From Marilutibacter aestuarii (lineage in GTDB: Bacteria > Pseudomonadota > Gammaproteobacteria > Xanthomonadales > Xanthomonadaceae), in the NCBI RefSeq assembly GCF_006546775.1, contig NZ_VICE01000017.1, positions 1-64,000 on the forward strand: a stretch of DNA of 64,000 bases. The letters run 5' to 3'. Each line of letters starts with the position of its first letter. Positions within the stretch are counted from its first letter, which is position 1. The notes under the pieces were generated by a model. The model was given only the letters and a program-made list of their open reading frames with translations, ran no database searches and had not been told where the DNA came from. Positions 35,547 through 45,221 of the stretch are shown in pieces. The translations under genes were made by a program, and so were the position numbers.

Positions 35547-35628
35547 CGGTCCCCCTTTTTCCTCCAGCTTAGCCCAACGGCGTGACGCCGCCTGGCGGCG
35601 GGGAACCGGTTTCACCTGCAAGCGTCGC

Positions 35629-35657
35629 TTGCGTCGTCCTGGAAGCTGGGGCAGGAT
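35629..35657 (+). promoter_or_regulatory. weak candidate promoter for asnB leader
   Basis: TTGCGT (35629-35634), 17 bases, CAGGAT (35652-35657). The -10 is poor, and the implied start would fall at about the ATG of the leader ORF. It is listed because a promoter must lie in 35547-35790 to supply the transcript that the terminator at 35819 acts on; the true one may differ. Confidence 0.25.
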
Positions 35658-35663
35658 CGGTCC

Positions 35664-35783
35664 ATGCATCCGCGCCACGCCAGCTTCGATCCGACCCGCC
35701 GCCGCCCCCGGGCAACGGCGCGTGTCGTGGCGCGTATCCGCAATGCGAATACCAACACCAGCCTCCATGGGGCCGGTGATTAG
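35664..35783 (+). CDS. putative asnB leader peptide with clustered Asn codons
   Basis: A 39-codon ORF (ATG 35664, TAG 35781-35783) with AGGA 7 bases before the ATG. Its C-terminal part reads RIRNANTNTSLHGAGD: three Asn codons (AAT 35742, AAT 35748, AAC 35754) within five codons, then 8 codons to the stop. A shorter in-frame GTG start at 35727 would give an 18-residue peptide with the same Asn run. It precedes an intrinsic terminator and asnB. This is the arrangement of leader peptides in his, leu, ilv, thr and trp attenuators, here with codons for the product of the downstream enzyme. Coding status is inferred. Confidence 0.6.
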   Translation: MHPRHASFDPTRRRPRATARVVARIRNANTNTSLHGAGD

Positions 35784-35846
35784 CGCGTAGTCGAAAGAAA
35801 AGACGTCGCTCTCCCCGGCCCACACTGCGAAGTGTGGGCTTTTTTA
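35769..35846 (+). promoter_or_regulatory. putative asnB transcription attenuator
   Basis: GGGGCCGG (35769-35776), inside the end of the leader ORF, can pair over 7 bases with CCGGCCC (35815-35821). The last three C of that segment are the foot of the terminator stem. A ribosome stalled at the Asn codons would leave GGGGCCGG free to form this antiterminator; a ribosome reaching the TAG would cover it and let the terminator form. The overlap with the terminator stem is only 3 of 8 base pairs, which is a weakness. Confidence 0.55.
35819..35846 (+). terminator. intrinsic terminator in asnB leader
   Basis: Stem CCCACACT (35819-35826) / AGTGTGGG (35831-35838), loop GCGA, followed by CTTTTTTATT. 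It lies 103 bases before asnB in the same orientation. The gene upstream is divergent, so no complete plus-strand gene needs it; it must act on the asnB leader transcript. Confidence 0.88.
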
Positions 35847-35948
35847 TTGCCTGCAGATCCCCGTCCCAGACAGCCCTCGCCACCATCGCAATGGACGCCG
35901 GCACCCGGGACCGGGTGCCCGCCCCGAACCACAAGGAACTCCACCCGC

Positions 35949-37658
35949 ATGTGCTCGATCCTCGGAATCTTCGGCCTCCAACCCGGCGACGACATTCCCG
36001 CCCTGCGCCGCCAGGCCTTGGAGCAATCGCAACGCCAGCGGCATCGCGGCCCAGACTGGAGCGGTGTCTACATGGACGAGGGCGCGATCCTGGTGCATGA
36101 GCGCCTGGCCATCGTCGACCCGGCCGGCGGCGCCCAGCCGCTGCGCTCGGGGGACGGTGGCCTGGTGCTGGCGGTCAATGGCGAGATCTACAACCACCGC
36201 GAGCTCGAGCAGGCCCTGGCCAGGCCTTACGACTTCCAGACCGGCTCGGACTGCGAGGTGATCAACGCGCTGTATCGCGAGTCGGCGGCCGCGGACGACG
36301 ACATCGCCGCCTGGCTGGACCGCCTCAACGGTATCTTCGCCTTCGCCCTGTGGGACGCCGGGCGCAAGCGCTACCTCATCGCCCGCGATCCGATCGGCGT
36401 CTGTCCGCTGTACTGGGGCCACGATGCCGATGGCCGGGTATGCGTGGCCTCCGAGATGAAGGCCCTGGCGAGCACCTGCGCCGATGTCGCGCAATTCCCG
36501 CCCGGGCACTATTACGACAGCGAAGTCGGCGCGCTGGTGCGCTACTACCACCGGTCGTGGCGCGACCACGACACCACCCGCGGGGTCGAAGTCTCCCGCC
36601 AGGCCCTGCGCGAGGCCTTCGAGGAAGCCGTGCACCGCCAGTTGATGTGCGACGTGCCCTATGGCGTCCTGCTCTCCGGCGGCCTGGATTCCTCGCTGGT
36701 CGCCGCCGTCGCCGCCCGTTTCGCACGGCGGCGGATCGAGGAGGACGACGCCTCCGAGGCCTGGTGGCCGCGCCTGCATTCCTTCGCGATCGGCCTGGAG
36801 GGCTCCCCGGACCTGGCCGCGGCCGAAGTGGCCGCCGCGGCGCTGGGCACGGTCCACCACGGCTTCACCTATACCTTCGAAGAGGGGCTGGACGCGCTGC
36901 CGGAGGTGATCCGCCACATCGAGACCTACGACGTCACCACCATCCGCGCGTCCACGCCGATGTTCCTGCTCGCCCGGCGGATCAAGGCGATGGGCGTGAA
37001 GATGGTGCTGTCGGGCGAGGGCAGCGACGAGGTCTTCGGCGGCTACCTGTACTTCCACAAGGCACCGGACGCACGCGAGTTCCACGACGAGACGATCCGC
37101 AAGCTCGACGCCCTGCACAATTACGACTGCCTGCGCGCGAACAAGTCGATGATGGCCTGGGGCGTGGAGGGCCGCGTGCCCTTCCTCGACGTCGACTTCC
37201 TGGACGTGGCGATGTCGATGGACGCCCGGCACAAGATGGCTGGCACCGGTCCGGACGGACGCAGGCGGATGGAGAAGGCGATCCTGCGCGAGGCCTTCGA
37301 AGGTTACCTGCCCGACTCGATCCTCTGGCGTCAGAAGGAGCAGTTCAGCGACGGGGTGGGATACGGCTGGATCGACGGTCTACGCGACCATGCCGCCGCG
37401 CAGGTCAGCGATCGGGTCTTCGCCGCGGCTGCCAGCCGCTTCCCTGTCAATCCGCCGCAGACCAAGGAGGCCTATCTCTACCGCCACATCTTCGAGCAGT
37501 ACTTTCCCGGTCCCGCCTGCGCGGCAACGGTGCCCGGTGGCAAGTCGATCGCCTGCTCCTCGCCGGCGGCGATCGCGTGGGATGCCGCGTTCGCCGAGGC
37601 GGCCGACCCCTCCGGGCGTGCGGTCGCCGGCGTGCATGCGTCCGCGTTCGCGGCCTGA
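35949..37658 (+). CDS. asnB: asparagine synthase (glutamine-hydrolysing)
   Basis: Makes asparagine from aspartate, ATP and glutamine. The 569 residues start MCSILGIFG, so Cys2 becomes the N-terminal nucleophile of the glutaminase domain (about 1-200; RHRGPDWSG, LAVNGEIYNHREL, GIFAFALWD). The synthetase domain has the ATP pyrophosphatase loop SGGLDSS (243-249), VLSGEGSDEVFGGYLYF, VEGRVPFLD and WRQKEQFSDGVGYGWI. It has AAGGAA before the ATG. The leader upstream suggests control by charged tRNA-Asn. It converges on tpm with a 42-base gap. Confidence 0.97.
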   Translation: MCSILGIFGLQPGDDIPALRRQALEQSQRQRHRGPDWSGVYMDEGAILVHERLAIVDPAGGAQPLRSGDGGLVLAVNGEIYNHRELEQALARPYDFQTGSDCEVINALYRESAAADDDIAAWLDRLNGIFAFALWDAGRKRYLIARDPIGVCPLYWGHDADGRVCVASEMKALASTCADVAQFPPGHYYDSEVGALVRYYHRSWRDHDTTRGVEVSRQALREAFEEAVHRQLMCDVPYGVLLSGGLDSSLVAAVAARFARRRIEEDDASEAWWPRLHSFAIGLEGSPDLAAAEVAAAALGTVHHGFTYTFEEGLDALPEVIRHIETYDVTTIRASTPMFLLARRIKAMGVKMVLSGEGSDEVFGGYLYFHKAPDAREFHDETIRKLDALHNYDCLRANKSMMAWGVEGRVPFLDVDFLDVAMSMDARHKMAGTGPDGRRRMEKAILREAFEGYLPDSILWRQKEQFSDGVGYGWIDGLRDHAAAQVSDRVFAAAASRFPVNPPQTKEAYLYRHIFEQYFPGPACAATVPGGKSIACSSPAAIAWDAAFAEAADPSGRAVAGVHASAFAA

Positions 37659-41385: not shown

Positions 41386-41472
41386 GCCCAGGTGGCGGAA
41401 TTGGTAGACGCACTAGCTTCAGGTGCTAGCGGGGGCAACTCCGTGGAGGTTCGAGTCCTCTCCTGGGCACCA
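41386..41472 (+). tRNA. tRNA-Leu (anticodon CAG)
   Basis: An 87-base gene with encoded CCA. The acceptor stem GCCCAGG pairs with CCTGGGC. The anticodon stem-loop CTAGC TTCAGGT GCTAG gives anticodon CAG. A long variable arm (GGGGGCAACTCC) marks class II, and GGTTCGAGTCC is the T arm. The determinant pattern fits leucine. An intrinsic terminator follows. Confidence 0.96.
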
Positions 41473-45161: not shown

Positions 45162-45178
45162 CGACTCACTCGAACGCG

Positions 45179-45221
45179 GCGGGGACGACCCCGCGACGCC
45201 ATCGCACCCGGGGACGGCCCC
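45179..45221 (+). promoter_or_regulatory. guanidine-II riboswitch (mini-ykkC)
   Basis: Two small hairpins with ACGR tetraloops: GCGGGG-ACGA-CCCCGC (45179-45194) and GGGG-ACGG-CCCC (45210-45221), 15 bases apart. This is the defining architecture of the guanidine-II riboswitch. It lies 20 bases before the AAGGAG Shine-Dalgarno of a SugE/Gdx gene, its commonest partner. Ligand binding by both loops would be expected to raise translation. Confidence 0.92.

Follow-up and report, generated by a model that had tools for sequence, protein, structure and literature searches.

A conserved leader with asparagine codons and alternative RNA pairings points to ribosome-mediated attenuation of asnB in the Xanthomonadaceae

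The trp, his, leu, ilv, thr and pheA leaders of Proteobacteria are the classical ribosome-mediated attenuators. The element described here, which lies upstream of asnB in Marilutibacter aestuarii, shares with them a leader peptide that carries regulatory codons, four strands capable of alternative pairing, an intrinsic terminator and an amino-acid biosynthesis gene downstream, but differs from them in that the codon is that for Asn and the target is asnB. In Firmicutes, asparagine genes are preceded by T-box leaders; there, too, uncharged tRNA-Asn is the signal, but the tRNA binds the RNA directly, whereas a translated peptide would be the sensor here. The first-pass annotation of this DNA knew of no described asparagine attenuator, and we likewise found no description of one in the open-licence full text of PubMed Central. 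In particular, no asparagine example was found in the accessible portions of a genome-wide attenuator survey (PMC2965389) or of PMC3568101, and in the accessible portion of PMC3771888 an asnB2 of Xanthomonas is tested as a possible target of an sRNA, with no account of attenuation. Asparagine would be a new amino acid for ribosome-mediated transcription attenuation, itself a known mode of control, and would, if this reading is true, join the amino acids sensed in this way; such an attenuator would also explain how asnB is controlled in a range of bacteria, Xanthomonas, Stenotrophomonas and Lysobacter among them.

The stretch of DNA that we analyzed (hereafter the window) comprises 64,000 nucleotides of contig NZ_VICE01000017.1, and contains the following features.

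35618–35632, strand not given: inverted repeat GCAAGCG-T-CGCTTGC with perfect 7-base arms, overlapping the −35 element
35629–35634, plus strand: predicted −35 element, TTGCGT
35652–35657, plus strand: predicted −10 element, CAGGAT, 17-nt spacer from the −35 element, ending 6 nt before the leader ATG
35664–35783, plus strand: leader peptide ORF of 39 codons, MHPRHASFDPTRRRPRATARVVARIRNANTNTSLHGAGD, read directly and with counterparts in relatives; transcript predicted to start on its AUG
35742–35756, plus strand: regulatory Asn codons, AAT-GCG-AAT-ACC-AAC, assigned from sequence and positional enrichment
35756–35778, plus strand: protector hairpin of strands 1 and 2 in the minimum-free-energy fold, overlapping the last Asn codon
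35770–35776, plus strand: strand 2, GGGCCGG, the 5′ half of the antiterminator, in the last leader codons, with 7 pairs to 35815–35821
35815–35821, plus strand: strand 3, CCGGCCC, the 3′ half of the antiterminator, with 35817–35821 common to the 5′ arm of the terminator
35817–35845, plus strand: intrinsic terminator, arms 35817–35826 and 35831–35840, loop 35827–35830, T run 35840–35845
35933–35937, plus strand: Shine–Dalgarno sequence of asnB, AAGGA
35949–37658, plus strand: asnB, encoding asparagine synthase B (glutamine-hydrolysing) of 569 aa, with its ATG at 35949

Direct reading bears out the annotated 39-codon ORF with its Asn codons near the end (AAT at 35742–35744, AAT at 35748–35750 and AAC at 35754–35756) ahead of asnB. 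The ORF ends with a TAG stop codon at 35781–35783, and its three Asn codons, the last of which begins 16 nt 5′ of strand 2, place it at the low end among the leaders we collected. An intrinsic terminator is present as annotated, first placed at 35819–35846 and here at 35817–35845; its hairpin has 10 pairs (35817–35840). The proposed pairing of the leader end with CCGGCCC at the foot of the terminator also stands, with 7 perfect pairs between GGGCCGG and CCGGCCC, but the overlap with the terminator arm is 5 bases and not 3. Nor is the overlap the weak point it had been taken for, since it measures 4–9 bases (median 7) in the 148 leaders considered below. Predicted fold energies in the window are −27.0 kcal/mol for the antiterminator and −18.8 kcal/mol for the terminator.

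The leader, its Asn codons, the alternative pairings, and the spacing and conservation described below, all found by sequence and computation, make it very likely that asnB is controlled by ribosome-mediated transcription attenuation at this element, with charged tRNA-Asn as the signal sensed; the conserved leader, the pairings and the spacing thereby support the candidate tRNA-Asn attenuator of the first-pass annotation, whereas the behavior of the RNA, the transcript start and the response to asparagine are inferred. RNA polymerase would probably begin transcription at the AUG of the leader. With ample Asn-tRNA, translation would proceed to the stop codon, where the ribosome would cover strand 2 and leave strand 3 to pair with strand 4, and transcription would terminate before asnB. 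If Asn-tRNA is scarce, the ribosome would stall on the Asn codons and cover strand 1, in which case strands 2 and 3 would pair, no terminator would form and asnB would be transcribed. With no ribosome on the RNA, the 1:2 and 3:4 pairings would both form and transcription would end.

The identity of the target is clear: the asnB product scores 853 bits with the NCBIfam equivalog NF006949 (cut-off 499), and contains the Pfam domains Asn_synthase and GATase_7. The gene stands alone because both of its neighbors, a penicillin-amidase gene on its 5′ side and a TPMT-family methyltransferase gene on its 3′ side, are on the minus strand; the earlier statement that no complete plus-strand gene upstream would need the terminator is thus correct. 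The genome encodes an asparaginyl-tRNA synthetase (AsnRS; 630.7 bits), and a search of the genome for GatB did not find it, a combination with which Asn-tRNA would depend on free asparagine and its charging should report the asparagine level.

The combination of leader and terminator here is more than a chance occurrence. Among 253 short ORFs scanned on both strands of the window, 6 are followed by a terminator-like hairpin, and the leader ORF alone (1 of the 253) combines such a hairpin with at least three Asn codons in its last 22. Across the family, asnB is present in 133 of 149 genomes. Upstream sequences were taken from 130 of these 133 (30 as loci and 100 more; G101, G142 and G143 were left out), one of which, L096, came without upstream sequence. 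An Asn leader precedes 113 of the 114 asnB orthologues (about 70% identity or more), named relatives with the leader including Lysobacter, Luteimonas, Pseudoxanthomonas, Stenotrophomonas and Xanthomonas species, and Asn leader, antiterminator and terminator were recovered together by automatic tests in 105 of the 114 orthologue upstreams. A terminator kept in relatives without the Asn codons, the pattern named in the first-pass annotation as speaking against attenuation, is therefore not what was found. Nine orthologue upstreams failed the automatic tests: L121, L137, L159, L188–L191 and L211 have an Asn leader and, after it, a hairpin that our script rejected, and L166 has no Asn leader, the leader having been lost. 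(With the T run judged more strictly, 15 of the 114 fail, 10 of which show a hairpin by a looser rule or by eye.) Upstream of diverged asnB genes in the same family (62–66% identity), an Asn leader was found in 0 of 15 cases. Terminator hairpins are common, and our model of the element, R1, is unspecific when used alone, matching unrelated terminators at low scores, as might be expected if the hairpin served simply for ordinary termination or insulation and the Asn codons were incidental; however, the occurrence together of Asn codons, strand 2 and terminator at orthologous but not at diverged asnB genes, and the fact that no upstream plus-strand gene ends there, make such an explanation highly improbable.

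The attenuator candidate extends to other families of the same order. In families f12 and f2, where 23 genomes have an asnB match, the leader was present in all 10 upstreams examined by asnB similarity, and 11 further loci found by model match, partly from the same genomes, also have it; the leader of one f12 member (G311) is identical to that of Dyella subtropica (L079). Outside the clade with asnB at 71% identity or more, no such leader was found upstream of a 66% asnB in one f12 genome, nor in about 20 upstreams of 60–70% asnB genes from other families, among which L297 came nearest, with three Asn codons that lie scattered at 334 nt upstream. Two genomes of the family that lack asnB have no Asn leader before three other asparagine synthase genes that score above the cut-off. 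Model R1 matched 192 of 200 genomes of the order at E ≤ 0.01 and 41 of 229 genomes of the class at E ≤ 1e-5, with a best score outside the order of 37 bits. Inspection of 27 loci with weak R1 matches revealed no comparable Asn leader; at one of these (L347), three Asn codons lie near the match, but beside a terminator without asnB. Two records stand apart. In L165, the true Asn leader and attenuator are set back about 422 nt from asnB, the terminator being separated from the gene by extra sequence. L049, a record named Nannocystis pusilla, carries the attenuator together with an 83% asnB, a finding that points to contamination, a wrong name or transfer.

The same layout occurs with other codons. 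A leader with Leu, Val and Ile codons, not Asn, precedes ilvC in a relative (L265), is matched by model R1, and has a very similar arrangement of strand 2, stop codon and terminator; it serves as a positive control that the layout is used for attenuation in this group. Three further leaders (L263, L264 and L258) have Leu/Val/Ile runs and a stop–terminator layout like that of L265, the one of the four whose downstream gene was identified.

In an attenuator, strand 2 should be open when the ribosome stands on the regulatory codon and covered when it stands at the stop codon. The leaders compared are 148 distinct sequences, that is, 187 elements minus duplicates and minus L165 (omitted here and from the alignment because the script chose a false ORF), all of them selected for at least three Asn codons and a hairpin. 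At the residue encoded 12–18 nt 5′ of strand 2, a position at which a stalled ribosome would just leave strand 2 free, Asn occurs in 135 of the 148, and the next most common residue, Arg, in 27 of the 148. The last Asn codon starts 13–17 nt before strand 2 in 131 of the 148, a rule at the level of sequence that is directly testable, and in 144 of the 148 a ribosome that has reached the stop codon would have strand 2 in its footprint. These positions bear on whether the leader might respond to slow translation in general or to a different amino acid such as Arg. Arg does make up 18% of the last 22 leader residues, second to Asn with 25%, and a ribosome stalled at that place for any cause would antiterminate; but the predominance of Asn over Arg at the stall position, and the fact that the controlled gene makes asparagine, leave little room for a sensor of that kind, which we regard as very improbable.

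Folding predictions agree with the proposed switch between termination and antitermination. When the bases covered by a stalled ribosome were removed, the antiterminator was predicted to form in 133 of the 148 leaders, and with the ribosome at the stop codon the terminator was predicted in 143 of the 148. In folds of the full leader without a ribosome, the terminator formed in 141 of the 148 and strand 2 was paired upstream in 135 of the 148; the 1:2 protector hairpin is thus predicted to restore termination when the leader is not translated. (Note that these are single-strand equilibrium predictions with ribosome-covered bases removed, and do not describe kinetics.)

That the leader is translated is also suggested by its codons. 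Of the 809 Asn codons in the leaders, 407 are AAT, versus 67 of 688 in asnB of named relatives, and this freedom of the third base indicates that it is the amino acid that is kept and not a fixed nucleotide motif. (Counts of Asn codons by frame, 815, 4 and 11, are biased, the leaders having been selected for Asn.) The position of the element, before an amino-acid biosynthesis gene and with a terminator, could also be that of a T-box or riboswitch to which tRNA-Asn or asparagine itself binds, with no need of translation. The free exchange of AAT and AAC is as expected for a translated leader, however, and no Rfam leader family covers the element: the region has no match at gathering score, and weak matches fall far below the cut-off (Trp_leader reaches 14.6 bits, its gathering score being 41). 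We consider direct binding extremely improbable. An incidental terminator, a general stall sensor and a T-box or riboswitch were all rejected on the evidence of conservation, stall residue, Rfam and codons. At gathering score, Rfam reported only two elements in the 64-kb window, both elsewhere: a tRNA gene at 41386–41469 and a Guanidine-II riboswitch at 45177–45221 (39 bits).

Covariation was assessed in an alignment of 57 diverse sequences, using five measures and 500 shuffles. The terminator covaries strongly, with 97.9% of cells paired, changes on both sides in 7 of the 10 pairs, and values that exceed all 500 shuffles on 4 of the 5 measures (the fifth was reached by 1 of the 500). The core of the antiterminator (columns 32–36 with 100–104), which is paired in 54 to 57 of the 57 sequences, is kept with compensatory changes. 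In particular, the column pair 34/102 is G-C in 51 of the 57, A-U in 6 of the 57 and broken in none; of the 6 sequences with A-U, 4 have changed to U-G at the terminator pair, indicating that the antiterminator is kept at the cost of the terminator. The outer antiterminator pairs are variable, with 74.5% of cells paired overall, and on 2 of the 5 measures the antiterminator did not exceed the shuffles (157 and 492 of the 500 were at least as high).

The promoter of the element had been called poor. A strict consensus scan listed no promoter-like sites and so misses TTGCGT-17-CAGGAT, but the position of these elements is conserved in relatives, which mends that weak point. Among 146 distinct leaders, with distances taken from the ATG closest ahead of the Asn cluster (chosen without knowledge of the promoter), TTGC occurs 34–38 nt before the leader ATG in 124, a −10-like TAnnnT or CAnnnT ends 6–7 nt before it in 117, and both elements are present in 113. 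The base that precedes the ATG is C in 133 of the 146, and an SD-like motif precedes the leader ATG in 25 of the 146 versus 140 of the 146 for asnB. The AGGA before the leader ATG, noted at first as if for ribosome binding, lies inside CAGGAT and is better taken as part of a −10 element than as a Shine–Dalgarno sequence. With promoter elements at a fixed distance from the ATG, the transcript is predicted to start on the AUG, and the leader mRNA is probably leaderless. Transcripts of trpL of Sinorhizobium meliloti (PMC7298713) and of the ilvB leader of Corynebacterium diphtheriae (PMC5784534) begin on the leader AUG, according to the accessible portions of those reports; they are precedents for a leaderless leader peptide such as is predicted here from sequence only, but concern other amino acids and other phyla or classes. 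A bolder combination, which we think unlikely, is that of a leaderless Asn-specific class of attenuator in which the ribosome loads on the 5′ end of the RNA as it leaves the polymerase, and in which the RNA released by termination, about 180 nt long and itself a small leaderless mRNA, would have a second role in trans, as an RNA or as a peptide; such a role has been reported for trpL of S. meliloti. The leaders collected here form a natural set for the study of leaderless leader peptides. In several relatives, GTTGC/GCAAC repeats lie in the same area as the inverted repeat at 35618–35632 of the window, which is a possible operator.
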